Part shown: positions 5,154 to 33,083 of the stretch, in pieces
Numbering within the stretch: the first letter of the stretch is position 1
How the letters are laid out: every line of letters begins with the position of its first letter
Source: Actinomycetes bacterium
GTDB taxonomy: Bacteria > Actinomycetota > Acidimicrobiia > Acidimicrobiales > UBA8190
Direction of reading: 5' to 3'
Length of the DNA stretch: 37,652 nucleotides
NCBI GenBank assembly: GCA_021819525.1
Contig: JAKAQW010000016.1
Location: 1-37,652, forward strand
Position numbers and translations under genes: made by a program
Notes under the pieces: model-generated
Databases searched by the model: none
Told to the model about the DNA's origin: nothing
Seen by the model: only the letters and a program-made list of their open reading frames with translations

Positions 5154-5176
5154 TGTCACCAAGACGAGGAGGAACG

Positions 5177-6367: not shown

Positions 6368-6376
6368 GGACCCGCG

Positions 6377-6491: not shown

Positions 6492-6516
6492 ACCACATGC
6501 TGGCACAAGAGGGGTG

Positions 6517-6606
6517 CTGCTCATCCTGGTCATCCTGCTCATCCTGCTCGTCCTGCTTGTCTTGCTCGTCCTGCTTGTCTTGCTCGCCCTGCTCGTCTTG
6601 CTCGTG
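6517..6606. repeat. 9-nt microsatellite (CTGCTCRTC type)
   Basis: About ten imperfect copies of a nine-base CTGCTCATC/CTGCTCGTC/CTGCTTGTC unit run through this non-coding gap. A frame opening at GTG 6514 would read Leu/Val/Ile repeats resembling a membrane helix (62 codons), and the other strand reads Gln/Asp/Glu repeats. No ribosome-binding site or conserved flank supports either, so it is recorded as a repeat only. The rest of 6368-6792 shows the hairpin repeats and a promoter-like site, but no gene. Confidence 0.7.
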
Positions 6607-6732
6607 CCGTGGCTGTTCCTGCACCCGGGCACCCGGCGAGGTGTGCCCGTCACATGGCGTACCACCACAACGCACAAGCATCACAATGACGAGACAATCT
6701 GAATACCTTCTCCTGATCCGCTTGTATGCGCC

Positions 6733-6762
6733 TTGACAGACGTGCGCATAGCTGCACACGAT
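6733..6762 (+). promoter_or_regulatory. Candidate sigma70-type promoter for the repeat-domain protein
   Basis: A perfect TTGACA (6733-6738) is followed after 18 bases by CACGAT (6757-6762), a weak TANNNT-like -10. The region from about 6655 to 6765 is less GC-rich than its surroundings. The predicted transcript would start about 20-25 bases before the ATG at 6793, leaving room for its GGGAGGGA ribosome-binding site. Confidence 0.4.
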
Positions 6763-6792
6763 AAGAGCGCGGGGGCAGGGGAGGGATCAAGT

Positions 6793-9441
6793 ATGGTTCG
6801 CAGTTGGTCGCGCGCGGGCTTGCGGCGGACGAGGCCTCGGACGCAGGCGATGAGCGTGATACTGCAAGGTGCCGTGGCCGCGATGCTCGGCGTCGGCCTC
6901 GTGGTCGGCGGTGCGGCATTGTCGGGGGGACCCCGTCCGCGGTCCGCTTTCAGCCTGGCTTCGCTGGCCGGCCCGCTGAAGGGAGTGTTCTCCGTCGAGC
7001 CGGGTCACTGCAACCTGATCGGCCCACCGAGCGGGAGCTACGTGGAGCTCGAAGAGCACGGGGTCCCGGTGCCGAACCCGAGCTCCACCTGCCCGCTCAC
7101 CAGCTCCTTCTACACACCGCTCAAGACCGGATCCGTCGGCTTGGTGAGCGGTGCCTACCAGCTCGATCCGGACCCGACCTTCAACCACAGTGGTGGTTCC
7201 GAAGCCAATGCGATCGTCACCCCGGTGTCGTTCCTCGGTGTGGGCTTCGGTCTGGCCACCACCTGTGCTGACCAGCAGCACCACGGCACTCCTACCGGGG
7301 CGTGCGCGAAAGGGACCACCGGTTTCCCGGTGCCCCAGCTCTACGCCGAGCCGATCGGTGCCGGTGGGTGCAAGGTGAGCCTCACCAGTGTCACCAGTGT
7401 GACCGGGGTGGTCGACATGTGCATCTACGGCAACCTCGAAGGGCTTGGCGTCACGTACAACGGCACGCCGAACGGCACCTGCGCGGATGGCGGTGGGGAC
7501 GGCTGCTACGACGTCGGAGCGGCCAGTGCAGCCTCCCTCGCGGCCACGAGCTGCGGGTCGGCTCCGCTGGGCGGGTGCAGCCTTTCGGGGACCCTGAACC
7601 CGATCACCGATGCCTACACCTTGCAGGTGACCTCAACCATCGTCGGGACGAGCTTCAACGGGGCCAAAGCGATCTTCTCGCTCGCCGGGACGTACAAGGC
7701 GGGCGTGCCGAGCAAGACGACGTCGAGCACCGGCTCGGGCGCCACGGCCACTTCGCCGTCGTCCACCTCGTCATCGAGCCCCTCGACGGCGACCCAGCCG
7801 ACGCCCGCCTCGGGCACGACCGGCCGGGCCATGGACGGTGTGTTCCATATCTCGGCCGGCTCGTGTGCCGGGAGCGCTGCTCCCAGCGGCAGCTGGATCC
7901 AGCTGGGCCTCGGTGGCGCCCCGATCAAGAACGCGAATTCTCCCTGCGACGGAGGCGCCTATACGCCCCTGAACCAGGGGACGACGGGCCTCGAGGCCGG
8001 TGCTTTCCAGCCTGATCCCACCCCCACCTTCGACAGCTCCGGGAATTCCCTTGCCGGCGCGATCGTCACCCCCACGAAATTCCTCGGTACCGACTTCGGT
8101 GCAGCCACGGACCCGCAGAACATGCAGGACGCGCCGACCGGGCCCGACGTGTTCCCGGCCCCGACAGCGATCCTGTCCGGCGACGTCATCCATGCCAACC
8201 TGAGCGCTGTCAATTTCACTTACAACGGGCCGCCCAACGGGACCTGCGCGTCCGGAGGCGGTGACGGGTGCTACGCGGTGGGATCCGCGGACGTGGTCGG
8301 ATCCTACGATCCGTCGACCCGAAGCTATCTGCTCAGCTGGACCTCCATCATCCATGGAGGCGCGTTCAACAACGCCACTGCTTCGTTCCACCTCGTCGGG
8401 GATTTCGTCGGCACCATCGCCGCGACGGAGTCCACGTTGAGCAGTGCGGGGGCCTCGGTGGTCAGTACGGCGCCTCCGTCTCCAGCCACATCGAGCAGCA
8501 CCTCGGGGGCTCAGAGCGCTTCCGTGACCACGACGCCGACGAGCACCGGCCCCCTCGACAACGCCATGGTGGGCACGTTCACGGTCGCGTCGGGCGCTTG
8601 CAACGCCAGCAGTGCACCGTCGGGAAGCTGGATCCAGCTGGGAAAGGGGGGTGCGCCCATCCCGAACCCGAGCTCGTCGTGCGACGGGGGCGCGTACACC
8701 CCGGTGAGCCAAGGGACCACCGGCCTCGAGACCGGCACCTTCCAGCCTGATCCCACCCCCACCTTCGACGGCTCCGGGAATTCCCTCGCCGGCGCGATCA
8801 TCACTCCGACGAAATTCCTCGGCACCGACTTCGGGGCAGCCACGGACCCGCAGAACATGCAGGACGCGCCGAGCGGACCAAGCGTCTTCCCGCCGCCGGA
8901 TGCTGTCCTGTCGGCGAGCAAGACGAGCTTCACTGCTGATCTGAGCGCCCTCAACTTCACGTACAACGGCACCCCGAACGCTACCTGCGCATCGGGGAAC
9001 GGGGACGGCTGTTACGCGGTGGGCTCGGCGGACGTCCCTGGCACCTACGATCCGACGAGCCACGCCTACACCATGTCCTGGACGGCCACCATCGTCGGGG
9101 GTGCGTTCAACGGCGCCACCGCGACGTTCCATCTGACCGGGACTTTCACGGGTCGCATCGTGACGGTGGCCGCGAGCTCGGTCCCCGCGACGTCTTCGAC
9201 CAAGAGCGCGCGGAGCCCGTCGTCGACAAGTGCCAGCGCGCCAGTGCCCACACCGAGCGGCGTCACTCCTGCCACCATCGCCGCTTCGGATGCCGGCTTG
9301 GCAGGTCGCGGTCCGTGGCCGGACGTCTTCGACGCCATCGTCCTGGCCATTGCGACAGCGGTTCTTGCCGCGGCAGCCGCAGAGACCCGTCGCCGCCGTC
9401 ATGCAGGCGGCTCGCACCGAGCCCGTAGAGCTTCGGGGTGA
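6793..9441 (+). CDS. Anchored surface protein with three copies of an undescribed four-Cys domain
   Basis: I do not recognise this family. ATG at 6793 follows GGGAGGGA with a 6-base spacer; the longer TTG reading would begin inside the promoter. The 882-residue protein has an Arg-rich N-terminus and a hydrophobic segment (about 22-45), probably a signal sequence or anchor. Three related domains follow at about 64-300, 348-537 and 593-790, separated by Ser/Thr/Pro-rich linkers, then a C-terminal helix (about 845-866) and an Arg/His-rich tail. Domains 2 and 3 share GSWIQLG, FQPDPTPTFD, FLGTDFG, DPQNMQDAP, NFTYNG, GDGCYAVGSADV and GGAFN. Each has four cysteines, probably two disulfides. Domain 1 is more divergent and carries an insertion with extra cysteines. 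Parts of domains 2 and 3 are nearly identical in DNA, indicating a recent duplication. The gene is followed by a lipoprotein with the same domain. Function is unknown. Confidence 0.8.
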   Translation: MVRSWSRAGLRRTRPRTQAMSVILQGAVAAMLGVGLVVGGAALSGGPRPRSAFSLASLAGPLKGVFSVEPGHCNLIGPPSGSYVELEEHGVPVPNPSSTCPLTSSFYTPLKTGSVGLVSGAYQLDPDPTFNHSGGSEANAIVTPVSFLGVGFGLATTCADQQHHGTPTGACAKGTTGFPVPQLYAEPIGAGGCKVSLTSVTSVTGVVDMCIYGNLEGLGVTYNGTPNGTCADGGGDGCYDVGAASAASLAATSCGSAPLGGCSLSGTLNPITDAYTLQVTSTIVGTSFNGAKAIFSLAGTYKAGVPSKTTSSTGSGATATSPSSTSSSSPSTATQPTPASGTTGRAMDGVFHISAGSCAGSAAPSGSWIQLGLGGAPIKNANSPCDGGAYTPLNQGTTGLEAGAFQPDPTPTFDSSGNSLAGAIVTPTKFLGTDFGAATDPQNMQDAPTGPDVFPAPTAILSGDVIHANLSAVNFTYNGPPNGTCASGGGDGCYAVGSADVVGSYDPSTRSYLLSWTSIIHGGAFNNATASFHLVGDFVGTIAATESTLSSAGASVVSTAPPSPATSSSTSGAQSASVTTTPTSTGPLDNAMVGTFTVASGACNASSAPSGSWIQLGKGGAPIPNPSSSCDGGAYTPVSQGTTGLETGTFQPDPTPTFDGSGNSLAGAIITPTKFLGTDFGAATDPQNMQDAPSGPSVFPPPDAVLSASKTSFTADLSALNFTYNGTPNATCASGNGDGCYAVGSADVPGTYDPTSHAYTMSWTATIVGGAFNGATATFHLTGTFTGRIVTVAASSVPATSSTKSARSPSSTSASAPVPTPSGVTPATIAASDAGLAGRGPWPDVFDAIVLAIATAVLAAAAAETRRRRHAGGSHRARRASG

Positions 9442-9485
9442 GCTGTGCTGCCCGAGCGAGCATTGCCGAACCACGAGGAGGATCG

Positions 9486-10226
9486 GTGCAGGTTCGAAGT
9501 ATGACAATCAAGATCGGTGTGCTCGCCGGCGTGGCCTGTCTGGCCGCGGCATGCGGCAGCTCCACCAGCTCCACCAGCGCTGCGCCGAGCTCGGCGAAGC
9601 CGAGCGGTACGCACGTGCTGGCGGGCACCTTCGACATCGCTCCAGGCACGTGCACCACGGGCACTGCCACGCCCGGCGGCAGTTGGTTCCAGATGCTCGG
9701 TCACGGTGGCGCCGTGGTCAAGAACTCCTTCGGAGGCTGTGCCAACCCCGATTACACCCCGTTGAAGCCGGGCACGAAAGGCGGGCTCGTGAGTGGGACC
9801 TACGAGCCCAATCCCACGCCCGCGTTCTCGGGGTCGAACGCCCTGGCCGACGAGATCGTGAAGCCCGTGAGCTTCTTCGGCAGCGACTTCGCGCTTGCCA
9901 CGCAGGCGGTCGACCCGCAGACGGGGAAGAGCGTGCCGAAGCCGTCGGTCACCTCTACTGCCGGCGTGCTGAGCGGGAACTTGGAAGCGATCGACGCCGC
10001 CTACAACGGCGCGTACTTCAACCAGGGCTCGCCGAAGCCCGGCGGCACCTACCCTGGTACCACGAAGGCGGTCTCGGGCACCATCAGCTGCTCTGGCAAC
10101 TACACCTTGGAGTGGCAGAGCCTGATCGTGGGTGGTGCTTTCAACGGCTACACCGGCGTGTGGCACCTGACAGGGACCTTCGTGCCGGCAGCCGGAACGT
10201 CTCTGGCCAAGGCACTGGGGTGCTGA
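9486..10226 (+). CDS. Lipoprotein with one copy of the same four-Cys domain
   Basis: An exported lipoprotein of about 246 residues. GTG at 9486 follows AGGAGG (9476-9481); ATG at 9501 is the other candidate. The leader ends in a lipobox (CLAAAC), giving lipidated Cys at about residue 23, then a Ser/Thr linker. The remaining 200 residues match the repeat domain of the preceding gene: GGSWFQMLGHGGA, DYTPLKPGTKGGLVSGTYEPNPTPAFSG, VSFFGSDFALAT, YNGAYFN, and IVGGAFNGYTGVWHLTGTF near the end. It lacks the CASG..GDGCYAVG segment, and its cysteines are placed somewhat differently. It follows the large protein by 44 bases and its stop overlaps the next gene by 7, so the three are probably co-transcribed. 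No function can be assigned. Confidence 0.8.
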   Translation: MQVRSMTIKIGVLAGVACLAAACGSSTSSTSAAPSSAKPSGTHVLAGTFDIAPGTCTTGTATPGGSWFQMLGHGGAVVKNSFGGCANPDYTPLKPGTKGGLVSGTYEPNPTPAFSGSNALADEIVKPVSFFGSDFALATQAVDPQTGKSVPKPSVTSTAGVLSGNLEAIDAAYNGAYFNQGSPKPGGTYPGTTKAVSGTISCSGNYTLEWQSLIVGGAFNGYTGVWHLTGTFVPAAGTSLAKALGC

Positions 10227-11404
10227 ACCGGCGATTGGCCGCCTGGCTGGTGCTCGTCGTCGGCGTCGCGTTGATGGTGGCGCCCGAGGCCTTCGACATG
10301 TGGGTCCGAGCACCACGCGGCGCCCAGATGATCGGCGGGTTCGCGAGCATCATGACGGCGAAGAACGTGCCGCTCGTCGCCAGCTATGGCCGCACCGTGC
10401 TCGGTGGCTTCGGGAACGCGGCGCTGACCATCCAGCGCGCGGCCTCTCGTTTCAGTGGCGGGCACCGGTCGCTGAGCTACAGCCAGGCCACCTCGTTCAT
10501 CGCCAGCCAGGGCAACCTGCGAGGTCTCGCTTACATGGACCGGAACCTGCCGGTGCTCGGACCGCCATTCTCCACGTTGCTGTCGGTGCTCTACAAGGAC
10601 CAGCCGGCGTTCGCAGGGATGCACGGTCTGCCGAGCTTCACCCTGTTCCCGCTGTTCTTCGTCGTCCCTGGCCTGCTCATCGCCGGCGGGGCTGCGGTGT
10701 TCTTGCACCGTGACGGTCGTCCTGACAGCCTGGGGCGGCCGGTCTCGGCCCGCGGGCCGGCGGCATTCCTTCTCGTGATCGGGTTCCTCGTAGCCATCGC
10801 CCCGCTGCTGCCGATGCCGCCGGGCTTCCACTCGATCCGCACGGTGGGCCCCCACGGCGCCGCCATGCTCGACGACTTCGCAGCGCCGATCAACGGTCCG
10901 GGGTCAGCGCCGGTGATGAGCCTGAAGACGGTGGCCCAATTCGATGGGTACGTCGCGGAGATGCGCCTCGCGTCGACCGAGATCGTGCCTGCGGTCCAAG
11001 ATGCAGCCGCGACGTTCGGGCACCGCCACATCAGCGCTAGCACCGCGACAGCCTTCTTGGCATCGCAGCCCTCGCTCGCCCTGGTCTACCGGATCGAGCG
11101 GGACTTCCCGGCCATGTACCGGTCGTTCCACCACATGCTGGCGACCATGGCGAAGGACATGCCTGATTATCAGGCGGTACAGAAGCTGCCGTCGTTCTCC
11201 CTGTTCCCGCTCTTCTTCTACGTGCCCGGGGGCATCGTCTTCCTGCTCGCACTGTTCGGGTTGCTGCGTGGGGCGCCCGCCAAGCCAAACGCCAGCAGGG
11301 CGCTGCTCGGTGACAACCCAGTGCCCGGCAACGAGGCGCTCGCTGGGATCGGCACCCCGGGTACAGCGCCCACCCCGGGAGCAGCGCCCACCCCGGGGGC
11401 ATAG
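10220..11404 (+). CDS. Internally duplicated four-helix membrane protein
   Basis: An unrecognised integral membrane protein of 394 residues, starting at GTG 10220 inside the end of the lipoprotein gene. It looks like two tandem halves. Each half has a hydrophobic helix (about 6-24 and 180-200), an outside domain of about 115-125 residues, and a second helix preceded by LPSFTLFPLFF or LPSFSLFPLFF (near 137 and 323). Both halves share RTV/KTV.., ATSFIASQ/ATAFLASQ, LPVL/FPAM and LLSVLYKDQP/MLATMAKDMP elements, supporting duplication. The C-terminus is a short Pro/Ala/Thr repeat tail encoded by an 18-bp DNA repeat. The coupling suggests it works with the two four-Cys-domain proteins at the cell surface, perhaps as their anchor or export partner, but this is only an inference. 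Confidence 0.75.
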   Translation: MLNRRLAAWLVLVVGVALMVAPEAFDMWVRAPRGAQMIGGFASIMTAKNVPLVASYGRTVLGGFGNAALTIQRAASRFSGGHRSLSYSQATSFIASQGNLRGLAYMDRNLPVLGPPFSTLLSVLYKDQPAFAGMHGLPSFTLFPLFFVVPGLLIAGGAAVFLHRDGRPDSLGRPVSARGPAAFLLVIGFLVAIAPLLPMPPGFHSIRTVGPHGAAMLDDFAAPINGPGSAPVMSLKTVAQFDGYVAEMRLASTEIVPAVQDAAATFGHRHISASTATAFLASQPSLALVYRIERDFPAMYRSFHHMLATMAKDMPDYQAVQKLPSFSLFPLFFYVPGGIVFLLALFGLLRGAPAKPNASRALLGDNPVPGNEALAGIGTPGTAPTPGAAPTPGA

Positions 11405-12050: not shown

Positions 12051-12073
12051 CGGCCGATGCCGCCGTCGAAGGC

Positions 12074-12180: not shown

Positions 12181-12636
12181 GTGCCCACCTATGTCAACCC
12201 GGACAAGTGCGATGGCTGCAAGGCGCTCGACAAGCCTGCCTGCGCGTACATCTGCCCGAACGACCTGATGGCGCTCGATCCGGCACTCGGCCAGGCCTTC
12301 AACCAGGAGCCCGACCAGTGCTGGGAGTGCTACGCGTGCGTGAAGACCTGCCCGCAGTCGGCCATCGCGATGCGGGGCTACTCCGACGTCGTGCCCCTCG
12401 GAGCGAGCCTGACGCCGTTGCGGGGCACCGACTCGATCATGTGGACGGTGCAGTTTCGCGACAAGCGGGTGAAGCGCTTCAAGTTCCCGATACGGACCAC
12501 TCCATGGGGCACGAGCGAGGGCTACGAAGCCATGCCCGAGCCCGATGTGTCGCGTCTGAGAGATCCACACCTCTGCGGTGAGGAGACGTACCTGGGCGTA
12601 GACGCCCTGCCCGTTCCCGAGGGGAGCGCCCGGTGA
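12181..12636 (+). CDS. aprB: Adenylylsulfate (APS) reductase beta subunit
   Basis: The iron-sulfur subunit of APS reductase passes electrons between the AprA flavin and the Qmo complex in the cytoplasm. The 151-residue protein starts [21 protein letters not shown], matching AprB closely. Two [4Fe-4S] ligand sets are visible: CDGC...C...CP in the first 25 residues and [12 protein letters not shown] near 54-65. The AprB tail that wraps around AprA follows, with [24 protein letters not shown] and so on. GTG at 12181 follows AAGGAGGA. The stop overlaps the aprA start (GTGA). With sHdr genes nearby, the enzyme more likely runs from sulfite plus AMP to APS than as a sulfate reducer, but sequence alone does not fix direction. 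Confidence 0.95.
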
Positions 12637-14498
12637 ACCCGCCCGAGATAGAGGTCGTGGAGACAGACCTCCTCATCCTCGGCGGGGGGATGGCAGGGTG
12701 TGGCGCCGCCTACGAAGCCGGCTACTGGGCCCGCACCCAGGGGCTGCGCACCACCCTCGTGGAGAAGGCGGCGGTCGAGCGCAGCGGCGCAGTCGCCATG
12801 GGCCTGTCGGCCATCAACTGCTACATGGGTATGCAGTGGGGCGAGAACCAGCCAGAGGACTTCGTCCGCTACGTGCGCCAGGACCTGATGGGCATCTGCC
12901 GGGAAGACCTTGTCTACGACATCGCCCGCCACGTCGACGAGTGCGTCCACCTCTTCGAGAAGTGGGGTCTTCCCATCTTCAAGAACGAGGACGGGCACTA
13001 CAAACGCGAGGGCCGCTGGCAGATCATGATCCATGGCGAGTCCTACAAGCCCATCGTCGCCGAGGCGGCGAAGCGGGCCATCGGGCCCGAGAACGTCTAC
13101 GAGCGGATCTTCGTGTCCCACCTGCTGAAGGACCCCGGGAGCGGTCGGGTGTCGGGAGCGGTCGGGTTCTCGGCTCGTGAGCACAAGGCCTACGTGTTCA
13201 AGGCCCAGGCCGTCATCGTTGCGGCCGGAGGCGCCACCGGGGTGTTCCGCCCGCATGCGGTCGGCGAGGGCTTGGGCCGCATCTGGTACGCCCCGTGGAA
13301 CACCGGCTCTGCCTACTCGCTCCCGATCCAGGCCGGTGCCACCATGACCCAGATGGAGCACCGCCTCGTCGTGACCCGGTTCAAGGACGGATACGGCCCC
13401 GTGGGCATGTGGTTCCTGCTCTTCAAGGGCAAGGTCCGCAACGCTTACGGCGAGCTCTACGAGGAGACCCAGGCGGCCGCCCTCGACGACTTCCCTCCCT
13501 ATGGCAACGCCCGGCCCATCCCCACGCCGCTTCGGAACCACCAGATGCTGCTCGACCGGGCCCAGGGCAAGGGCCCGCACTACATGCGCACCGACGAGGC
13601 GCTCCAGGCGCTGACCAAGGGCCTGGACCCGAAGGCCGTCCGCGAGATCGAGAGCGACGCGTGGGAGGACTTCCTCGACATGACCATGTCGCAGGCGCTG
13701 CTGTGGGCCTCGTACAACATCGACCCGGCACAGCTTCCCTCCGAGCTCGACCTCACCGAGCCATACCTGATGGGCTCGCACTCGTCGGGTACGGGAGCCT
13801 GGGTGAGCGGCCCCGAGGACCTGGCTCCCGAAGGCTACTTCTGGGGGTACAACCGCATGACCACCGTGCCTGGCCTGTTCGCCGCGGGCGACGGAGTGGG
13901 CGGCTCGGCGCACAAGTTCTCCTCTGGCTCCTATGCCGAGGGGCGGCTGGCCGCCAAGGGGGCGATCGCCTACATAGTCGACAGCCACCAGCGCCCCGAG
14001 GTCGACGACGGCCAGGCCGACGCGATGGTCGACTCCCTGTTCGCTCCCTACCGGGTTCTCGAGGACTCCCAGGGAGAGTCGACCAGGGCAGAGGTGAGCC
14101 CGAACTACTTCTTCCCGAAGCAGGGCCTGCTCAGGCTGCAGAAGCTGATGGAGGAGTATGCAGGCGGGCTCAGCAGCAACCTCATGGTGAACGAGCCCAT
14201 GCTGCTGCGAGGGCTCGAGCTGATGGAGATGCTGAAGCAGGACATGGACCGGGTAGCTGCCCGCGACCGCCACGATCTTCTCCGTTGCTGGGAGCTGCGC
14301 GACCGTATCTGGTGCGCCGAGGCACACATGCGGCACCTCCTCCACCGGAAGGAGACCCGCTGGCCGGGCTACTACTACCGTGGCGACTACCCCCAGCTCG
14401 ACGACGAGAACTGGAGGGTGTTCGTGAACTCCTCCTACGACGCGGCGACAGCGCAGTGGACGGTCGGCACCGCTCCGTACCACTCGATCGTGCCGTGA
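12633..14498 (+). CDS. aprA: Adenylylsulfate (APS) reductase alpha subunit
   Basis: The FAD subunit interconverts APS and sulfite plus AMP. Its 621 residues are a normal AprA length. The N-terminal dinucleotide motif LILGGGMAGCGAAYEA binds FAD. VVAAGGATGVFRP closes the flavin domain. The substrate-site segments VTRFKDGYGPVG (Arg near residue 249) and MGSHSSGTGAWVSGPED (His near 383) correspond to the Arg and His known to contact APS in archaeal AprA. The C-terminal part includes KETRWPGYYYRGDYPQLDDENW, also typical. GTG at 12633 overlaps the aprB stop by four bases, and the gene's own stop overlaps the qmoA start in the same way. The protein looks intact, unlike the sat remnant upstream. Confidence 0.96.
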   Translation: MNPPEIEVVETDLLILGGGMAGCGAAYEAGYWARTQGLRTTLVEKAAVERSGAVAMGLSAINCYMGMQWGENQPEDFVRYVRQDLMGICREDLVYDIARHVDECVHLFEKWGLPIFKNEDGHYKREGRWQIMIHGESYKPIVAEAAKRAIGPENVYERIFVSHLLKDPGSGRVSGAVGFSAREHKAYVFKAQAVIVAAGGATGVFRPHAVGEGLGRIWYAPWNTGSAYSLPIQAGATMTQMEHRLVVTRFKDGYGPVGMWFLLFKGKVRNAYGELYEETQAAALDDFPPYGNARPIPTPLRNHQMLLDRAQGKGPHYMRTDEALQALTKGLDPKAVREIESDAWEDFLDMTMSQALLWASYNIDPAQLPSELDLTEPYLMGSHSSGTGAWVSGPEDLAPEGYFWGYNRMTTVPGLFAAGDGVGGSAHKFSSGSYAEGRLAAKGAIAYIVDSHQRPEVDDGQADAMVDSLFAPYRVLEDSQGESTRAEVSPNYFFPKQGLLRLQKLMEEYAGGLSSNLMVNEPMLLRGLELMEMLKQDMDRVAARDRHDLLRCWELRDRIWCAEAHMRHLLHRKETRWPGYYYRGDYPQLDDENWRVFVNSSYDAATAQWTVGTAPYHSIVP

Positions 14499-19284: not shown

Positions 19285-19461
19285 CACCAGTTCACCGCCC
19301 GGCCGGGCCACGGCAACCTGCCGGCGCGCCGAACGGGAGCTCCGTGGAGCTCGAAGAGCACGGCGTAGCGGTCTCCAACCCGAATTCCCCCTGCCCGTTC
19401 ACCAGCTGGTCCTGCGCACCGCTCGAGACGAGCTCCGTCGGATCAATGAGCGGCGAGGCTC
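19285..19461 (+). pseudogene. Decayed fragment of the four-Cys repeat domain
   Basis: This stretch aligns base by base with the beginning of domain 1 of the large surface protein (6985-7161). PGH.NL, then GSSVELEEHGVAVSNPNSPCPFTSW and APLETSSVGSMSG, match GSYVELEEHGVPVPNPSSTCPLTSS and TPLKTGSVGLVSG. One base is missing soon after AACCTG (near 19320), which throws the two halves into different frames. There is no start, signal or downstream half. It ends where the arsR gene begins on the other strand. It is therefore a broken relic of a third gene of this family. Confidence 0.75.
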
Positions 19462-19950: not shown

Positions 19951-20006
19951 AATCAACGCAGATCCTGCTGTCTGGGGCCAAATCGCAGGTCTTGTCCGAT
20001 ATGGAC
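19931..20006. promoter_or_regulatory. Candidate ArsR operator pair
   Basis: The ten bases GTCCGATATG occur at 19931-19940, between the proposed -35 and -10, and again at 19994-20003. The second copy extends to an imperfect palindrome GTCCGATATGGAC (19994-20006). ArsR-family repressors bind short AT-centred inverted repeats, so a dimer on each copy would cover the promoter and the early leader. Confidence 0.4.
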
Positions 20007-20057
20007 GCAGGTCCTGTTGGTATCGAGATGGCGAGATCGATCGACCGGGGAGGGGCG

Positions 20058-20297
20058 ATGACAGACACAGCGGCCGACGTAGTCCTCAATTGCGAGGGTA
20101 TGCAGTGCCCGTTGCCGGTAGTGAAGACGGCGCAAGCCATCAAGAACCTCGAATTGGGCCAACTGTTGGAGCTGCTGGCCACCGACCCCGGCGTCGAGCC
20201 CGACATGACCGCGTGGTCGTCGCGTACGGGCAACACCATCGAGGAGATCCGCAAGGACGGTGACGTCTTCCACGTCCTCATTCGTAAAGGGAGCTGA
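20058..20297 (+). CDS. tusA: TusA-type sulfur carrier protein
   Basis: A small cytoplasmic persulfide carrier (79 residues) that feeds sulfane sulfur to the sHdr system. It has the defining CPLPV motif (CPxP, with Cys at residue 17) after NCEGMQ, and the family tail IEEIRKDGDVFHVLIRK. ATG at 20058 follows GGGGAGGGG; the reading that begins at 19992 lacks such a site and adds a non-homologous leader. It is the first gene of the sHdr operon, and the DsrE protein starts two bases after its stop, matching the common tusA-dsrE pairing in sulfur oxidisers. Confidence 0.93.
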   Translation: MTDTAADVVLNCEGMQCPLPVVKTAQAIKNLELGQLLELLATDPGVEPDMTAWSSRTGNTIEEIRKDGDVFHVLIRKGS

Positions 20298-20298
20298 G

Positions 20299-20694
20299 AT
20301 GGCAGTCGGCGCTTGGAGCGGCGACGGGGAAGGCAAGGTCCTCTACGTCCAGACCCATGGGGTGGACGACCCAGGGCGCTGCGCCACCCCGTTCTTCTTG
20401 GCGGCTTCCGCCGCGGCCATGGAGTGCGAGGTGGCCATCTACTTCACCATGTACGGCCCGCAGCTGCTGCAGCGAGCCGTGGTGGACAAGATCGGCCCGA
20501 AGGGCGAGCGGGGCCAGCCGCTGTCGTACTTCATCAAGCAGGCGACGGATCTCGGTGTGCGCCTGTATGTCTGCCAGCCGTCGTTGGATCTGAACGACCT
20601 GCTGATCGAGGATCTCATCGACGGGGTGGAGATGATCGGCGGGGCCTCGTTCAACGAACTGGCCCTGACCGCCGACTCGGTGATCTCGTTCTGA
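20299..20694 (+). CDS. dsrE3: DsrE3-type sulfurtransferase
   Basis: A DsrE-family protein of 131 residues that probably exchanges persulfide sulfur with TusA. The sequence has KVLYVQTHGVDDPGRCATPFFLA near the start, IYFTMYGP in the middle and VRLYVCQPSLDLNDL. The cysteine at residue 92 is at the family's persulfide position. The ending EMIGGASFNELALTADSVISF is typical. An AAGGGAG lies just upstream, and the stop overlaps the hdrC1 start (TGATG). It differs from the DsrE2-type protein at 36874. Whether it is the catalytic or the regulatory DsrE3 subtype cannot be settled by eye. Confidence 0.88.
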   Translation: MAVGAWSGDGEGKVLYVQTHGVDDPGRCATPFFLAASAAAMECEVAIYFTMYGPQLLQRAVVDKIGPKGERGQPLSYFIKQATDLGVRLYVCQPSLDLNDLLIEDLIDGVEMIGGASFNELALTADSVISF

Positions 20695-21509
20695 TGGCGA
20701 TCGGCACCGAGCTCCAGGGCGGCACCGTCACGCAGAGCGGCACCGGTATCGCTCGCGGGGTCGTCGGTGGCAGCCCGGATACGGGGAACGGGGCGATCCT
20801 CGAGGGCAACGCCTTCTTCAAGAACCCCGCGGTGGCCGGCTTCGAGGACGTGGCCTACGAGGAGAAGGAGCGCTTCTTCGAAGCCGTGCGCAGCGACATG
20901 CGCTTCCCGGACTACCTCTACGGGTGCTACGAGTGCGGGATCTGCGTGGCAGTGTGCCCGTCGGCTCGCTTCTACGACTTCAGCCCCCGGCGTATCGCCC
21001 AGGCGGCTGCTCGAAAGGATGTCGCCCTCTTCTACCAGCAGATGCAGGAGGACATCTGGGAGTGCTCCCAGTGCTTCTCGTGCGTGCGCTGCCCACGGGG
21101 CAACAACCCCGGGGGCATCATCACGATCATGCGAGAGGTGGCCATAAACGAGGGCATGGCATCGGCGAAAGAGGCGCTCGAGGGCTACTCGCGCATCGTG
21201 TACAAGATCATGTCCACCGGCACCCAGGTCTCTCCCGACATGCTGCAGCCCGACGCCTTTCCCGACTGGGGGCCCGAAGTGCGTGACGTCTCGGAGCACC
21301 TGGCGCTGTGGCGGCGAGCGCTGCCACCGGAGACGCTGCACACCACCGCCACCAGCTGGGACGTCTCCGAGCGCACCTTGATCGAGCTGTACCTCATATG
21401 GATGGAGACCGGGGCGCTGGACATGATCCGGAACGTCGACGAGAGCCTGCACATGATCCTCGAAGAAGTCATGGAGGAGCGGCTCGAGGAGGAGGGGATC
21501 GAACGATGA
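20694..21509 (+). CDS. hdrC1: sHdr subunit HdrC1 (iron-sulfur protein)
   Basis: An electron-transfer subunit of the sulfur-oxidising heterodisulfide reductase-like complex, 271 residues. Two [4Fe-4S] ligand sets are present: C78, C81, C84, C88 (CYECGICVAVCPS) and C124, C127, C130, C133 (CSQCFSCVRCP). The second set is the compressed CxxCxxCxxCP spacing of HdrC1 rather than a standard ferredoxin. Long helical stretches follow, including LIELYLIWMETGALDMIRNVDESLHMILEE, ending in a very acidic C-terminus. The gene is coupled to dsrE3 by TGATG and to hdrB1 by ATGA. The order hdrC1-hdrB1-hdrA is the hallmark of shdr operons. Confidence 0.92.
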   Translation: MAIGTELQGGTVTQSGTGIARGVVGGSPDTGNGAILEGNAFFKNPAVAGFEDVAYEEKERFFEAVRSDMRFPDYLYGCYECGICVAVCPSARFYDFSPRRIAQAAARKDVALFYQQMQEDIWECSQCFSCVRCPRGNNPGGIITIMREVAINEGMASAKEALEGYSRIVYKIMSTGTQVSPDMLQPDAFPDWGPEVRDVSEHLALWRRALPPETLHTTATSWDVSERTLIELYLIWMETGALDMIRNVDESLHMILEEVMEERLEEEGIER

Positions 21510-22714
21510 CGACCCGAAGTGCCACACCAGTGTCGGTGATCTTGCAGAAGAAGCAGCATTTCGAGCGTGATCCGGAGCGTCTGCCGGTGGACTTCCACGA
21601 CCGGCTCTACGAGCTCGAGGCGGCCGGGGAGCTGGTCGTGCAGCGCCCACCGGATCCGACCGACGTCGTCACGGTCCCCACCAAGTACGGCCGACCCAAG
21701 GTGATACCCCGAGGGCATCTGTGGCACCACAAGTCCTGTGGTCAGTGCGGGCATATCCCGGGCTACTCCACCTCGATCTTCTGGGTGATGCGGAAGCTCG
21801 GCTACGAGTACCACGACCCACGCGACCAGACGTCGTGCACGGCGTGGAACTACTACGCGAGCGCAACGTCGAACCCCGCGGCGCAGGCAGCCGTGGCGTT
21901 ACGGAATTTCGCCGCTGCGTACGAGTCGGGCTACTACCCGCTCATCCACTGCGCCACCTCCTACGGGCATTACAAGGAAGTGCGCGGGGAGCTGCTGCGC
22001 CATCCCGAGCTGCGCCAGCAGGTCCGCCAGGTGATGGACAAGCTGGGCAAGCCCATGGTGCTCCCCGAGGAGATCGTGCACTACTCGGAGTGGTTCTACG
22101 CCATGCGCGACGAGATCGCCGCTCGTCAGGTACGGGACTTCTCCGGTATCGGGGTGACCGTGCACCCGGCCTGTCACTATTACAAGCTGGTCGAAGGGGA
22201 TGCCATCTACGACCCAGACGTCTACCAGGGGCAACGGACCGCCGTGGTCACCGGTCTGGCCGAATCGCTCGGTGCCGAGGTCCGGGAGTACTCGACATGG
22301 TACGACTGCTGCGGTTTCGGGTTCCGCCACATACTGGTGCAGCGTGACTTCACCCGTTCGTTCGCCACGATGCGCAAGATCGAGGTCATGAAGGAAGAGG
22401 CGAACCCCGACGTCGTGCTCACACACGACACGGGATGTGTCACCACCCTCGACAAGAGCCAGTTCGCCGCCCAGGCGCACGACCGCAAGGTCGGGGTGGC
22501 CGTGATGTCCGAGGCCCAGTTCGCCGCGCTGGCCATGGGGGCTCATCCCTACAAGGTCTGCCAGCTGCACTGGCATTCGGCGGACTACCGGCCGCTGCTC
22601 GAGAAGATGGGCATCGACTGGCGCCAGGCGTGGGCCGAGTTCGAGGACGAGGTCAAGCGGCTCGAGCGGGGAGACGTACAGTACTTGACGTGGGACGACG
22701 TGGACGCCTCCTGA
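21506..22714 (+). CDS. hdrB1: sHdr subunit HdrB1 (CCG-domain, cubane iron-sulfur)
   Basis: The putative catalytic disulfide/sulfur-handling subunit, 402 residues. Family members bind noncanonical [4Fe-4S] clusters through CCG domains. The first module shows HHKSCGQCGHIPGYS (C78, C81) and QTSCTAWNYYASA. The second shows HPACHYYKL, YDCCGFGFRH and HDTGCVTTLDKSQF. The C-terminus has HPYKVCQLHWHSADYRPLLEKMGIDW, a helper histidine/cysteine segment typical of sHdrB1. ATG 21506 overlaps the hdrC1 stop. Unlike its neighbours, it is followed by a 185-base gap before hdrA. Confidence 0.92.
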   Translation: MTTRSATPVSVILQKKQHFERDPERLPVDFHDRLYELEAAGELVVQRPPDPTDVVTVPTKYGRPKVIPRGHLWHHKSCGQCGHIPGYSTSIFWVMRKLGYEYHDPRDQTSCTAWNYYASATSNPAAQAAVALRNFAAAYESGYYPLIHCATSYGHYKEVRGELLRHPELRQQVRQVMDKLGKPMVLPEEIVHYSEWFYAMRDEIAARQVRDFSGIGVTVHPACHYYKLVEGDAIYDPDVYQGQRTAVVTGLAESLGAEVREYSTWYDCCGFGFRHILVQRDFTRSFATMRKIEVMKEEANPDVVLTHDTGCVTTLDKSQFAAQAHDRKVGVAVMSEAQFAALAMGAHPYKVCQLHWHSADYRPLLEKMGIDWRQAWAEFEDEVKRLERGDVQYLTWDDVDAS

Positions 22715-22899
22715 CCAGGGGCAGCCGTACCAGCACCGGGTGCGTTCCGTGGTTCACCGGGCAGGGACCGAGCGCGGCTTGCGGACGCTTGGGCGCCGGC
22801 GACGCCCAGCGTCATCGGTCGGTCGGAGGACCGCTGCTCGGCACCGAGGACGAGACAGTTCGATCTGGGGCCATGGGTCCCAGCAGAGGGGAGGGGTTC
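22715..22899. other. 185-base gap inside the sHdr operon
   Basis: The only sizeable break among otherwise overlapping sHdr genes. It is GC-rich, contains a GGGCGCCGGCGACGCCC inverted repeat near 22790, and no ORF with a ribosome-binding site. It may hold an internal processing, attenuation or promoter site; none is clear. Confidence 0.35.
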
Positions 22900-23958
22900 G
22901 TGGCCAGTGAGTCCGTGTTGGTCATCGGAGGTGGTCCGGCTGGTCTGGCTGCGGCCCGGTCGGTGGCAGATCTCGGCGGCAACGTCGTGCTGGTGGAGCA
23001 GCGTGACTTCCTCGGCGGCACGCCTATCGCCGAGAACTACGCGTCGATCACCCCACACCTGGAGAGCGCCGAAGTGGCGCTCGGGCGGGTCGTCGATGCG
23101 GTGCAGGGGCATCCCGGGATCACCGTCCACTTGGGGGCAGAGGTCATCTCCTGCACCGGCGATGCAGGCGAGCTCACCGCAGTGCTGCGCAGCGCCGAAG
23201 GCGAGCAGCCCGTCGAGTGTGGCGCTGTGATCGTGGCGACGGGCTTCCAGCACTTCGACCCGGGGCGCGAGACCCAGCTCTACGGCTACTACGAATTGCC
23301 TGACGTGCTCGCCTTGCAGGATCTCGAGTCGATGCTGAAGGCGGGGTCGGTGGTCCGCCCCAGTAATGGCCAGGCGCCGAAGCGCCTGTGCTTCATCCAG
23401 TGCGTGGGAAGCCGAGACCGCCACATCGGCAACGAGTACTGCTCCAAGGTGTGCTGTGGGGTGGCGTCGAAGGAGGCCATCGAGGTCCGCCAGGCCCTGC
23501 CGGACTGCGAAGTGTTCATCTTCTACATCGACATGCGCATGTACGGCTACTGGGAGAGCCAGATCTACTGGCCTGCCCAGGAGCAGCACAACGTGCAGTA
23601 CGTGAAAGGCATCGTCAGCGAGATCCTTCCCTTCGGCGACCGGTTGCTGGTCCGAGGTGAGGACACCACGATGGGCAGGCCCATGGAGATCCCCATGGAC
23701 ATGGTGGTGTTGTCGGTCGGCATGGAGCCTTCCCCAGGTACCCGTCGCACCGCCCAGGTGCTCGGTGTCGCCCAGAACAAGTACGGGTTCATCGACGCGG
23801 TCGACTTGCCGCTCGACACAGTGTCCACCAGCCGGCCCGGTGTCTTCGCCGCGGGTGCCGCACTTGGCCCGGCCGACTTGGAGGACTGCGCTTCGAGCGG
23901 CGCGGCTGCCGCCATGCGGGCCATGGCCGTCATCCGTGGCGCGCAGGTAGCGGTCTGA
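22900..23958 (+). CDS. hdrA: sHdr subunit HdrA (FAD/iron-sulfur)
   Basis: The flavin subunit of sHdr, about 352 residues, the short form typical of sHdrA and without the extra ferredoxin domains of methanogen HdrA. The FAD motif VLVIGGGPAGLAAARSV is at the N-terminus. LVEQRDFLGGTPIAENYASITPHLESAE follows; then FIQCVGSRDRHIGNEYCSKVCCGVASKEA gives the cysteines for its single [4Fe-4S] cluster. The C-terminal part has VFAAGAALGPADLEDCASSGAAAAMRA, closing the flavin fold. GTG at 22900 is preferred because GAGGGGAGGGG lies just upstream; ATG at 22873 is in frame but lacks such a site. It is closer to sHdrA than to the QmoA paralogue at 14495. Confidence 0.92.
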   Translation: MASESVLVIGGGPAGLAAARSVADLGGNVVLVEQRDFLGGTPIAENYASITPHLESAEVALGRVVDAVQGHPGITVHLGAEVISCTGDAGELTAVLRSAEGEQPVECGAVIVATGFQHFDPGRETQLYGYYELPDVLALQDLESMLKAGSVVRPSNGQAPKRLCFIQCVGSRDRHIGNEYCSKVCCGVASKEAIEVRQALPDCEVFIFYIDMRMYGYWESQIYWPAQEQHNVQYVKGIVSEILPFGDRLLVRGEDTTMGRPMEIPMDMVVLSVGMEPSPGTRRTAQVLGVAQNKYGFIDAVDLPLDTVSTSRPGVFAAGAALGPADLEDCASSGAAAAMRAMAVIRGAQVAV

Positions 23959-23961
23959 GTG

Positions 23962-24693
23962 ATGACCGGGCCGATCGTCGACACTCCGGCCGCGCAGGAG
24001 CTGATGGCGGAGATCCTGGAGCGCGTGGACCGTCGCGATCTCTCTGCCACCTCGGAGCGCCTCGGGAAGAAGAGCGAAGGCTTCCAGCGCCTGCTCGGCG
24101 AGCATCGGTCGTCGAGCATAGCGCCCGACGACCTGCGCCGGGTGCTGCGGAGCGTCTTCTCGTGCCGCCGCCATGCCGACCAGATCCTTGCCGCGGTGGG
24201 AGCAGACCGGTTGGGTGCCGGCATCGAGGAGCTCTTGGAGGGCCACGGAGCACTCTCGGAGCGGATCGACCGGTTCGACGCGCTGCTGGCGGAGCACGGC
24301 GGTCCGGGGTTCGACCTCCCCGGCGAACTGCTGCACTTCACCTACCCGGACCGCTACTGGTTGTGGACCCGCTGGATGTGGGATCCGCGCACCGAGACCG
24401 GTGCGCTGCGGCTGGTGACAGCCGACGACGTGGACCTCATGGGCGACGGGCGGGGAGCTACGTACGTGAAAGTCGGTCGAGCGGTCGCGTTCGTCGAGGA
24501 GACCGGCAAGGCAGTCGGGTTCACGGCCATGGGCCAAGGTCTGCTGGGCATCGACGTGTTCTTGGCGGCAGCCTACGGCATCTACATGTACACGGTGCTG
24601 CGCATGCGGATGACCCAAGAATTCAACCGGATCGTACCGCCGCTGCCGGATCTGCTGCAGCGGCTGCTCGGCGTTCGCGCTCTGGAGGTGTGA
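23962..24693 (+). CDS. sHdr-associated conserved protein (Hyp)
   Basis: The uncharacterised protein always found between hdrA and hdrC2B2 in shdr operons; 243 residues here. It has no cofactor motif. The first 120 residues are helical and charged (AAQELMAEILERVDRRDLS; LLGEHRSSSIAPDDLRRVLRSVF). A central aromatic block follows (LLHFTYPDRYWLWTRWMWDP). Near the end is a hydrophobic stretch, GQGLLGIDVFLAAAYGIYMYTVLRMRM, that could be a membrane-touching or buried helix. ATG at 23962 is preceded directly by GTG (23959). Position rather than motif makes the call. Its role in the complex is unknown. Confidence 0.85.
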   Translation: MTGPIVDTPAAQELMAEILERVDRRDLSATSERLGKKSEGFQRLLGEHRSSSIAPDDLRRVLRSVFSCRRHADQILAAVGADRLGAGIEELLEGHGALSERIDRFDALLAEHGGPGFDLPGELLHFTYPDRYWLWTRWMWDPRTETGALRLVTADDVDLMGDGRGATYVKVGRAVAFVEETGKAVGFTAMGQGLLGIDVFLAAAYGIYMYTVLRMRMTQEFNRIVPPLPDLLQRLLGVRALEV

Positions 24694-24695
24694 CC

Positions 24696-26009
24696 ATGCC
24701 AGTCGGTGGGAAGAAACAGCTGCCCGTCGTGATGGAGAAGGAGCAGGTCAGCGTTCGCTCGCTCATCTCCGACCGGGAGTCGGAGCTGCCGGGGATGTGG
24801 AACCGGATGTTCGAACAGCGGGTGCTGCGTGACTACACCACTCGCGAGCTCGACCGGGTCGCGGCGCTTCCCGGCGGGGAGTCGCTCGAATGGTGCTACG
24901 GCTGCGGCAAGTGCGTCCCGGTGTGCCCCGTCGACCTGGTCGGCGAGTACGGGCCGCGGAAGATCCATCGCAGGACCCAGACCGGTACGAACCTGCTCGA
25001 GAGCGCCGATCTGTGGCTGTGCACCACGTGTGGCAACTGCCTGCGGGTGTGCCCGAAAGAGGTCGACATGATGCAGATCATGCCAGCCGCCCGTGCAGCC
25101 GCCGTCGGCCAGAGCACCGTCCCCGGCGAGCTGCAAGACGTCTTCGAGAAGACCTTTCGTTACGGGAATTGTCTGGGTCAGAACGCTCGTCGCCGCCACG
25201 CGTGGACGCGGGGAGCCGGCGTGCCGGTGCGGGTCCTGGCCGACGAGCCCGGGCCGGTCGACGTGCTGTTCTACGTAGAGGACTACTGGAGCTACCACCC
25301 CCGCGGCCAGCAAGCGGCGCAGGCCATGGCCCGGGTGCTGAGCGCGCTCGGCATCGACTGGGCGATCCTGGGCGCCGAGGAGAAGACGTTGGGTGACTCG
25401 CAACGCACGGCCGGTGAGAAAGGGCTGTTCGAGGCGCTCATGGAAGACGTGGTCGCCACGCTGGACAAGTACGAGTTCTCGCGCATCGTGACGCCTGACC
25501 CCCATGGGTTCAATGCGCTGGTAAAAGAGTACCCCAAGCACGGGCATCGCTACGACGTGCTCCACTACACCCAGCTGCTCGCCCCCCTCGTCGACCAGCT
25601 CGAGCTGACCGTGCCCGTGGAGCGAACGGTGACGTTCCACGACCCGTGCTACCTCGGCCGGCACCACGGCGAGTACGACGCGCCTCGCCGCCTCATCGAG
25701 GCCATCCCCGGCATCCGGCTGACCGAGATGTCCCGATGCCGGGAGAACGGCTACTGCTGCGGCGGCGGCGGCGGCGGCATGTGGCTCGACGGCTTCACCG
25801 CCTCGCACACCACCGAGCGGCTCTCCGAGCGCCGCGTGCGCGAGGCGGCTGCCACCGGGGCCGACGTGCTGGCGGTGTGCTGTCCCTACGAGGTGTCGCG
25901 CTTCGAGGACGCGGCAAAGTCCACCGGCAACGAGCAGCTGCAAGTGAAGGACATCATCGAGCTGATCGACGAGGCCATGGGCCATGGTGCCGATGCCGAG
26001 CCAGCTTAG
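24696..26009 (+). CDS. sHdr subunit HdrC2-HdrB2 fusion (HdrB3 type)
   Basis: One 437-residue polypeptide combining an HdrC part with an HdrB part; in the best-studied operons these are separate HdrC2 and HdrB2. From memory, the fused form is called HdrB3 and goes with EtfAB-type operons, as here. HdrC ligands: C67, C70, C73, C77 (CYGCGKCVPVCP) and C109, C112, C115, C119 (CTTCGNCLRVCP). The HdrB part has a first module that has lost its cysteines (FYVEDYWSYHPRG; EEKTLGDSQR), and an intact second one with HDPCYLGRHHGE, GYCCGGGGGGMW and AVCCPYEV. It is strikingly similar to the Qmo-linked paralogue at 17975, which keeps a cysteine at each of the two changed positions. TGGAGG precedes ATG 24696. 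The next gene overlaps the end by 26 bases. Confidence 0.9.
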   Translation: MPVGGKKQLPVVMEKEQVSVRSLISDRESELPGMWNRMFEQRVLRDYTTRELDRVAALPGGESLEWCYGCGKCVPVCPVDLVGEYGPRKIHRRTQTGTNLLESADLWLCTTCGNCLRVCPKEVDMMQIMPAARAAAVGQSTVPGELQDVFEKTFRYGNCLGQNARRRHAWTRGAGVPVRVLADEPGPVDVLFYVEDYWSYHPRGQQAAQAMARVLSALGIDWAILGAEEKTLGDSQRTAGEKGLFEALMEDVVATLDKYEFSRIVTPDPHGFNALVKEYPKHGHRYDVLHYTQLLAPLVDQLELTVPVERTVTFHDPCYLGRHHGEYDAPRRLIEAIPGIRLTEMSRCRENGYCCGGGGGGMWLDGFTASHTTERLSERRVREAAATGADVLAVCCPYEVSRFEDAAKSTGNEQLQVKDIIELIDEAMGHGADAEPA

Positions 26010-27114
26010 AGTCCTCGACTTCGGGCAGGTGAGCCCGCTTCGCTCGCAGACCCTGTGGCATGCGGTGGCCTACGGGGTGGACGGCGGAGCGCCGGCCACG
26101 GTGGCCTTCTGCCGCCCGCAGCGCCCGTATGTCTGCGTGGGGTACCACCGGAGCCTGGCCGAGATCGACCTGGCCTGGTGCCGGCGGCGAGGCCTGCCGG
26201 TGTACCGCAGGATGGCGGGTGGGGGTCCGGTCTACGTGGACCAGGAGCAGCTCCTGTTCCAGCTGGTGGTGTCGCGCGAGATGCTGCCCCGGTCCAGGAC
26301 CGAGGCGGTGCGAACGGTCTTGAACTGGGTGGTCCCGGCCTTCGTGGCTGCGGGCCTGGATGCCGCGCTCGACGAGCACGGTGAGATCAGCGTGGGGGTC
26401 CGCAAGGTGTGCGGGCACGGTGCGGTGGAGATCGGTGAGGCGGTGGCCGTGGTCGGGAACTTGCTCGGACGGTTCGACCACCACGTCGCCACTGCGATCC
26501 TGGCGATCCCCGACGCGCCGCTGCGATCCGAGGTCGAGCAGGCGATGCGGCGCTACGTCGGTACCGGCGAGACCACGCTCGACGCGGACGCGTTCAAGGA
26601 GGAGGCCGTGTCCTCCTTCGCCCATCACCTGGGGCTCGAGCCCTGGCCCGGATCGCTTACCTGCGCGGAGCGCACCTGGCTGGGCCAGCTCGACGAGCAG
26701 TTCGAGAGCGACAGCTGGCGGATGGGCACCGATCGCTCGGCGTCACCAGTGCTCGATGTGAAGATCCGCGCCGGGGTGCACGTCACCGAGTCGGGACCCC
26801 GGATCGGTGTGCGGCTCGGGTCGAGGGAGGCACCGACGAGGCCATGTTCGGTGAGGTCGGATCGGCAGGCGACGCCCTCCCAGGCGACGCCCTCCCAGGC
26901 GACGCCCTCCCAGGCGACGCCCTCCCAGGCGACGCCCTCCCAGGCGACGCTCTCCCAGGCGCCGCCGTCCGGGCGTGGTGCAGCGGTGCTCGGGTCGAGA
27001 GCGACGGAGGTGCCCGGTCCAGCTGCGCCCACCCCTCCTCCTGACAGGGCACATGCCAGTACCGGCGCACCCGTGGCGCCGAGCTCGAGTGGAGGTGTGC
27101 CATGTCGTCTGTGA
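25984..27114 (+). CDS. Lipoate-protein ligase/octanoyltransferase-family protein with repeat tail
   Basis: A biotin/lipoate transferase-fold protein (376 residues) likely to act in lipoylating the LbpA proteins of this locus. Core motifs are PYVCVGYHRSLAEID, RRMAGGGPVYVD (about 75-86) and the invariant lysine K141 in GVRKVCGHGAVE. There is no separate accessory domain. From about residue 280 it runs into a low-complexity tail containing seven QATPS-type units, then a Pro/Ala/Ser-rich end. ATG 25984 lies 26 bases inside the upstream gene; ATG 25993 is an alternative. The lysine and GGG loop suggest it is active. It is distinct from the second ligase at 28663, which has the usual accessory domain. 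Whether it takes lipoate, octanoate or moves a lipoyl group between proteins cannot be told. Confidence 0.8.
   Translation: MVPMPSQLRVLDFGQVSPLRSQTLWHAVAYGVDGGAPATVAFCRPQRPYVCVGYHRSLAEIDLAWCRRRGLPVYRRMAGGGPVYVDQEQLLFQLVVSREMLPRSRTEAVRTVLNWVVPAFVAAGLDAALDEHGEISVGVRKVCGHGAVEIGEAVAVVGNLLGRFDHHVATAILAIPDAPLRSEVEQAMRRYVGTGETTLDADAFKEEAVSSFAHHLGLEPWPGSLTCAERTWLGQLDEQFESDSWRMGTDRSASPVLDVKIRAGVHVTESGPRIGVRLGSREAPTRPCSVRSDRQATPSQATPSQATPSQATPSQATPSQATLSQAPPSGRGAAVLGSRATEVPGPAAPTPPPDRAHASTGAPVAPSSSGGVPCRL
26866..26970 (+). repeat. 15-bp tandem repeat coding QATPS units
   Basis: Six near-perfect copies of CAGGCGACGCCCTCC (26866-26955; the sixth has one changed base) and a seventh degenerate one (26956-26970) lie inside the lipoate ligase-family gene. 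The units are in frame, so copy changes lengthen or shorten a disordered tail without a frameshift. Confidence 0.9.
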
Positions 27115-27566
27115 CGACGGTCCGCGGCTTCGAGGTGTGGCTGGATCTGGCCTACGCCGAGGGAAGCCATATGTGGGTGGACCAGCCGACCCCCGAGACC
27201 GCCCGTGTGGGTCTCGACACGCTCGGGGTGCAGACCAGCGGCAGCCTCGCTCATGTCGACCTGGTCGCGCTGGGCACCGAGCTCCGCCGGGGTGAGCCCA
27301 TGGGCACGGTGGAGGCAGACAAGTTCGTCGGGCCACTGCGCTCGCCGCTGTCGGGAGTCGTGCGCCAACGCAACGAGGCGGTGCTGGGGGACCCGGGCCT
27401 GGTCCAGCGCGCGCCCTACAGCGCCGGTTGGCTGCTGGTGCTGGCCCCGCCGGCCGGAGGATGGGACGGGGAGCTGGATCGCCTGGTGCACGGGCCCGAC
27501 GCTGTGCGGTCGTGGTTCGACGAGGAGATCCGGCGCTTTCGACGGGAGGGGGTGCTGGCGTGGTGA
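27102..27566 (+). CDS. lbpA: GcvH-like lipoate-binding protein LbpA, divergent copy
   Basis: A carrier of the lipoyl group used by sHdr, 154 residues with the GcvH fold. The lipoylated lysine should be K74 in VEADKFVGPLRSPLSG, the spot where the other two LbpA proteins here have VES.KWVGP. It is the most divergent of the three: it begins with a different N-terminus (RGFEVWLDLAYAEGSHMWV) and lacks the DAEGI.C ending. ATG 27102 follows GGAGG and overlaps the tail of the ligase-like gene by 13 bases. Its stop overlaps the following radical-SAM gene. Position among ligase and synthase genes suggests that it may serve as the assembly scaffold rather than the working carrier, which is only an inference. 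Confidence 0.85.
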   Translation: MSSVTTVRGFEVWLDLAYAEGSHMWVDQPTPETARVGLDTLGVQTSGSLAHVDLVALGTELRRGEPMGTVEADKFVGPLRSPLSGVVRQRNEAVLGDPGLVQRAPYSAGWLLVLAPPAGGWDGELDRLVHGPDAVRSWFDEEIRRFRREGVLAW

Positions 27567-30956: not shown

Positions 30957-31018
30957 TGACGAGCAGCTACGGGTAATGGACATCGCGGAGATTGTGGAGT
31001 TGGCTATGGAGGGTGCAC

Positions 31019-31117
31019 GTGCAGGCTGAAGTCGACGAGAACCTCGGCGAGGTCGGAGTGCGTGGGAGGGCTCGCGTGGCCTGGACCGAGGCGTTGGAGG
31101 AAAGGAGAGCTACATGA
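31019..31117 (+). CDS. Possible 32-codon small ORF coupled to etfB
   Basis: GTG 31019 opens a short frame (QAEVDENLGEVGVR...) that ends in a TGA overlapping the etfB start (ATGA). A second mini-frame (30976-31029, MDIAEIVELAMEGARAG) overlaps its start. The two could be a leader peptide pair or a decayed small gene. There is no homology that I can name, and chance is a real possibility in GC-rich DNA. Confidence 0.2.
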   Translation: MQAEVDENLGEVGVRGRARVAWTEALEERRAT

Positions 31118-31893: not shown

Positions 31894-31939
31894 TGGGAAG
31901 ATCTCGAGGATCTGTGGAGATGCCTGAGAGGAGAGTGCT

Positions 31940-32899: not shown

Positions 32900-33083
32900 G
32901 CCGACGTGCACCGTCACCGGCCTGGCTGTGCCGGCGCCGCCCTTCGATCAACGTGGGTCCTACGGAGTGCATTCACCCGGTTGGCAGGCCAAGTACCTGC
33001 CCGACAAAACCCACTGCAGTCGACGGGGGGGCCGGCGTAGCCGCACCGCTCGAGGCTGCTGTGATCGCGCGAAAGGAGCGTTG

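Follow-up and report, generated by a model that had tools for sequence, protein, structure and literature searches.

Isd/NEAT and HtaA systems are surface receptor relays of Gram-positive bacteria, in which an anchored protein with several homologous domains in tandem is combined with a lipid-anchored partner and a membrane protein. The locus described here lies in a 37,652-nucleotide stretch of the genome of a soil actinobacterium of the order Acidimicrobiales (the window, by which we mean the whole stretch that was analyzed). It resembles these relays in that an anchored protein with tandem domains (gene A), a lipoprotein (gene B), and a membrane protein (gene C) are encoded adjacently, an arrangement that is conserved in relatives. 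Unlike in the NEAT and HtaA relays, lipoprotein B bears the same domain as A, and an ABC transporter is only sometimes present. In addition, the domain matched neither the NEAT nor the HtaA families in sequence (Pfam/NCBIfam), nor did it match them in fold (PDB).

SoxT1A is described as the sole demonstrated importer of reduced sulfur into the cytoplasm of sHdr-type sulfur oxidizers, and it is said to be missing from type II sHdr genomes (PMC11582611). Like the SoxT/YeeE-type importers of these organisms (PMC11582611), the gene C family includes membrane proteins whose genes lie among those for sHdr-type sulfur oxidation. However, the YeeE/SoxT family (PF04143) is absent from the query genome, and C has four predicted transmembrane (TM) segments, compared with nine in TsuA, and is without a conserved Cys motif.

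The predicted structure of C also weakly recalls the tweety homologues (TTYH), which have been implicated in lipid transfer (PMC12328215). The AlphaFold2 model of C, which is all-alpha and of modest confidence (pLDDT 75), combines membrane helices with a helical ectodomain, and TTYH was its top PDB match in Foldseek (probability 1.00). Given that TTYH proteins are eukaryotic and that the match reached a TM-score of only 0.27 and an E value of 5e-3, we treat it as a lead and not as homology. Finally, a set of hypothetical membrane proteins of undefined role has been reported as styrene-induced in Gordonia CWB2 and R. opacus 1CP (PMC13101518). On Gordonia, RHA1, and DK17 plasmids, a relative of C lies directly upstream of a block that matches this set (PMC13101518), although C is not one of the seven proteins as matched here and the A/B domain is absent there.

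We propose that A, B, and C may form an envelope module that binds poorly soluble substrates and passes them on, a reading to which we assign a probability of roughly 0.35. The weak TTYH resemblance of the C model fits this proposal and proves nothing. We infer the role of the domain itself from its partners.

An undescribed domain in genes A and B

The module is laid out in the window as follows.

6793..9441, + strand: gene A, an open reading frame for an 882-aa exported, C-terminally membrane-anchored protein with three domain copies
6967..7713 (approximate), + strand: domain D1, carrying inserts plus six additional cysteines (hmmsearch domain E 4.7e-92)
7810..8418, + strand: domain D2 (hmmsearch domain E 2.9e-103)
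8542..9159, + strand: domain D3 (hmmsearch domain E 1.5e-104; AlphaFold2 model m200ba7511b94)
9486..10226, + strand: gene B, a lipoprotein with one domain copy, D4, at about 9600-10196 (domain E 7.9e-86)
10220..11404, + strand: gene C, a 394-aa membrane protein made of two TM - helical ectodomain - TM repeats, with four TM segments in all

Short tandem repeats occupy the gaps that flank the A-B-C module, at 6517-6605 (9 bp x 10) and 12072-12153 (21 bp x 3). Farther upstream (150-6367) are carboxylase, HMG-CoA-lyase-like, and acyl-CoA dehydrogenase genes, which suggest a leucine-degradation type cluster, with the dehydrogenase alone checked by family search.

The sequence-only reading had recognized one domain three times in gene A and once in the neighboring lipoprotein, and all four copies of this ~200-aa domain proved to be real. 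A profile made solely from the copies in other genomes scored those of the window at E 1e-44 to 1e-71, while the best of 1000 shuffles reached E 0.03 with the same profile. D2 and D3 are 71-72% identical, and identity to D3 is 46% for D1 and 39% for D4. The D2/D3 dN/dS of about 0.3 indicates that the copies are under selection.

The same reading had taken the Ser/Thr/Pro-rich linkers as typical of surface exposure, and our results support the prediction that the domains of both genes are exposed at the cell surface. The gene A protein has a single hydrophobic segment at either end (residues 20-38 and 845-863), and its linkers are 50-73% Ser/Thr/Pro, compared with 33% overall. Gene B has a GTG start at 9486 with AGGAGG upstream, a lipobox (LAAAC), and a stop at 10226. 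The C terminus of gene A in the window consists of a TM segment and an Arg-rich tail, but with LAGRG in place of LPXTG; relatives of the domain genes carry the LPXTG-like tails LPGTG, LPNTG, LAFTG, and LAHTG. In a Dormibacterota metagenome-assembled genome (L016), a sortase gene (5160-5747) and an ApbE-like fragment judged by eye (5941-6249) lie directly downstream of the module.

The claim that the domain belongs to no named family held up as well. Searches of Pfam, NCBIfam, and PHROGs gave no domain family over the cut-off (best E 0.008-0.3, single members), a PDB sequence search gave no match, and no phage match was found. Weak Pfam matches to DUF7015, SPW, and QPE, all below the cut-off, were rejected. 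The AlphaFold2 model of D3, built from a 16-row alignment, is all-beta with high confidence (pLDDT 93.7, pTM 0.88), and a Foldseek comparison with PDB and viral structures returned nothing at E<=0.001 (best PDB match E 0.3, TM below 0.25). The domain is therefore undescribed by each of these comparisons (named families, PDB sequences, and PDB and viral folds), and it is predicted with high confidence to adopt a fold that has no solved relative among the structures compared.

The domain had also been described as having four cysteines, which is accurate for D2 and D3 but not for the other copies, as D1 has the same four plus six more and D4 has the first pair only. Across 37 domains, the first two cysteines were both present in 30 and both absent in 7, and the last two were both present in 7 and both absent in 30. 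Given that the pairs are kept or lost jointly, they fit two disulfides and not the conserved reactive cysteine of a sulfane-sulfur carrier. Since the conserved cysteines look structural, covalent binding of sulfur by the domain is unlikely.

Gene C and the partners of the domain

The unit had been taken to end at 10226, a boundary that we had to abandon, since the start of gene C, at 10220, overlaps the gene B stop and this third gene is part of the conserved module. We found a homologue of C in 11 of the 12 domain-positive genomes of the order, versus 23 of 397 genomes overall (P about 2e-14), and almost every relative carries it beside the domain genes. One genome (L021) has a single 813-aa ORF in which DUF4395 is fused to the domain and both C repeats. 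The A/B/C set recurs in Dormibacterota L016, accompanied by DUF4395 and the sortase. A Tsukamurella plasmid has the set too, there joined by genes for a secreted helical protein and an ABC transporter. Given that A/B and C are neighbors across lineages and are fused in one genome, they belong together, and the three genes appear to constitute one envelope module. The pairing of C with the domain, the fusion, and the recurrence of the whole set also support our proposal that the module handles poorly soluble substrates. The L020, L024, L050, and Tsukamurella loci additionally encode a secreted, Pro/Ala-rich protein, one end of which is helical and conserved.

Alternatively, the domain genes could encode structural or adhesive surface proteins, whose repeats on Ser/Thr/Pro stalks would attach cells to sulfur, minerals, or other particles, an idea already raised by the sequence-only reading. 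The tandem domains, the stalk-like linkers, and the tails and sortase gene of relatives would suit such a role. However, the strict tie to lipoprotein B and a polytopic membrane protein, together with the fusion to membrane domains, is better suited to transport or signaling, and the link to sulfur is missing in most domain-positive genomes, which leaves this alternative doubtful.

It is also possible, although we think it rather unlikely, that the A-B-C proteins and DUF4395 form a thiol-redox module for extracytoplasmic disulfide or persulfide handling, with the domain as a substrate or redox partner. DUF4395 is fused to or beside the domain gene in 8 of the 16 genomes counted, thioredoxin lies beside DUF4395 in 4 of 30 loci, which is a weak link, and some loci are near CysM/CysO-type or cysteine dioxygenase genes. 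In the query genome, however, DUF4395 is on another contig, it is widespread in the order, where 84 of 148 genomes have it, and cysteine pairs are lost jointly in many members, as structural disulfides are.

Another alternative is that the module exports or maintains lipids or envelope polymers, powered by an ABC-2 type transporter, with sulfur and hydrocarbon neighbors that are incidental or secondary. ABC genes lie directly downstream of the module in L050, L052, L053, and the Tsukamurella plasmid, the transporter is of the ABC-2 type, whose members are usually exporters, and the TTYH-like hint would agree with this role. Yet neither the window module nor most of its relatives have an ABC gene, and single-repeat C genes occur in TusA/DsrE clusters, so we regard this explanation as improbable.

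Sulfur neighbors, distribution, and descent

Our preferred reading, an envelope module for poorly soluble substrates, can be set against the genes downstream of C.

12181..14498, + strand: aprB and aprA, 777 bp downstream of gene C (APS-reductase_C E 1.8e-28; FAD_binding_2); given as context, with module membership not implied
19290..19454, + strand: D1-like domain relic, frameshifted (79% nucleotide identity; blastn E 5e-34; genome search E 1.5e-6)
19992..35183, + strand: cluster of TusA, DsrE, sHdr, LbpA, LplA, LipS2, and Etf genes (Pfam/NCBIfam), type II sHdr with a fused C2-B2; given as context

The window also holds Qmo/Hdr-like genes, and its genes include the type II sHdr set as defined in PMC11582611. 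The relic lies within this sulfur cluster, between a Hdr/QmoC-like gene and an ArsR gene.

A role at sulfur particles had been suggested from this neighborhood, and the evidence bearing on it is divided. With window positions 23959-24690 as the sHdr marker, 25 of the 397 genomes in the order were positive, and none of the 11 other domain-positive genomes was among them. Since only 0.67 overlaps were expected, this zero neither shows nor excludes avoidance. Co-occurrence of the domain with sHdr in the order was rejected, as the query genome is the sole overlap, and the marker is absent from L016, the closest relative of the window module. On the other hand, domain genes stand on both sides of the sHdr cluster in G397, a distant actinobacterium outside the order, where a molybdopterin/Fe-S/NrfD-like oxidoreductase lies near the domain/sHdr region.

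Gene C homologues are enriched in sHdr genomes: 7 of the 23 genomes with a homologue carried the marker, compared with 1.45 expected (P 0.0002, or 0.001 without the query genome), although 18 of the 25 sHdr genomes of the order are without gene C. Single-repeat forms of C lie in the TusA/DsrE/Hdr clusters of five domain-negative genomes (L072, L073, L074, L076, and L081). In L081, which is without the sHdr marker, an operon at 4860-7522 reads C - DsrE - TusA - DsrE - TusA-like and is followed by an HdrA-like gene. Of 12 domain-negative genomes, 5 have C no more than 5 kb from TusA/Hdr genes; the corresponding chance of about 1e-7 is a rough guide only, since it assumes a hand-set chance of 1% per genome for TusA/DsrE genes at that distance. 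A wider search that added the single-repeat members revealed no further sHdr genomes with C, and because its controls were chosen and excluded known C-positives, all statistics are from the initial search. Gene C and its homologues showed no match to PF04143, and that family was absent from G397 and from six other tested C-positive genomes with such clusters or markers, as it was from the query genome; among the genomes tested, it was present in G287 only. A guess that a neighboring gene in L070 encodes a methanethiol oxidase found no Pfam support.

The order has 12 domain-positive genomes among 397, query genome included; outside the order, the domain was detected in two more genomes of a phylum sample, 1 of 96 Dormibacterota relatives, and one Tsukamurella plasmid. 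In the tree, D1 of the window groups with D1 of L016 (support 96/95) and was called orthologous to it, and D4 pairs with its L016 counterpart at lower support (93/81), a pattern consistent with movement of the entire A-B-C set from one phylum to another. That the module hitch-hikes on horizontally transferred islands, with neighbors uninformative about its function, would account for the patchy spread, the plasmid copies, and the grouping with Dormibacterota, but it is unlikely given the proximity of C to TusA/Hdr genes and its first position in the L081 operon.

Hydrocarbon neighbors and the proposed role

Relatives of C on plasmids, whose homology to C was established by HMM (E 1e-17 to 1e-36), are found among genes for hydrocarbon oxidation. 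The relative follows StyAB directly on the Gordonia CWB2 plasmid, the dmpG meta-cleavage genes on the RHA1 and DK17 plasmids, and P450/EthD genes in RHA1 and R. opacus 1CP, and another plasmid copy lies beside an aromatic hydroxylase cluster. In strain ZPP a relative follows propane-type monooxygenase and GroEL genes, and in R. koreensis one follows a toluene monooxygenase cluster. Since catabolic plasmids are full of oxygenases, the adjacency of C to oxygenases there is weak evidence. The seven-gene block matching the styrene-induced set (L135, 7103-11202) encodes small proteins, several with membrane segments, and recurs on Rhodococcus and Gordonia catabolic plasmids.

By sequence, A and B share a disulfide-stapled beta domain outside the membrane, with A anchored by its C-terminal TM segment and B by lipid. 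Under our preferred reading of A-B-C as a substrate-handling module, the domains would capture a substrate within the cell wall and pass it via lipoprotein B to the ectodomains of C at the membrane, in the manner of a receptor relay. The substrates would be poorly water-soluble; in the query organism the likeliest may be zero-valent or polymeric sulfur destined for the TusA/DsrE/sHdr/Apr pathway, and in relatives they may be hydrocarbons or lipids. The sulfur side of this proposal is suggested by C in the five TusA/DsrE/Hdr clusters, the overlap of C with sHdr, and the flanking domain genes of G397, and the hydrophobic-substrate side by the relatives of C near styrene, toluene, and propane monooxygenases, P450/EthD, and meta-cleavage genes. 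Counting against the proposal are the domain-positive genomes without the sHdr marker, which are the majority, the sHdr genomes without C, the usual export function of ABC-2 type transporters, and the modest confidence of the C model.

As a long shot, the C family, with the domain as an external partner in some lineages, may be a missing route by which zero-valent sulfur crosses the envelope to TusA/DsrE/sHdr in type II sHdr actinobacteria without SoxT, a way of handling poorly soluble substrates that would be shared with hydrocarbon oxidizers such as Rhodococcus. Found both in sHdr clusters and beside styrene, toluene, and propane oxygenases, the C family is a concrete candidate for an envelope device of general use with poorly soluble substrates.
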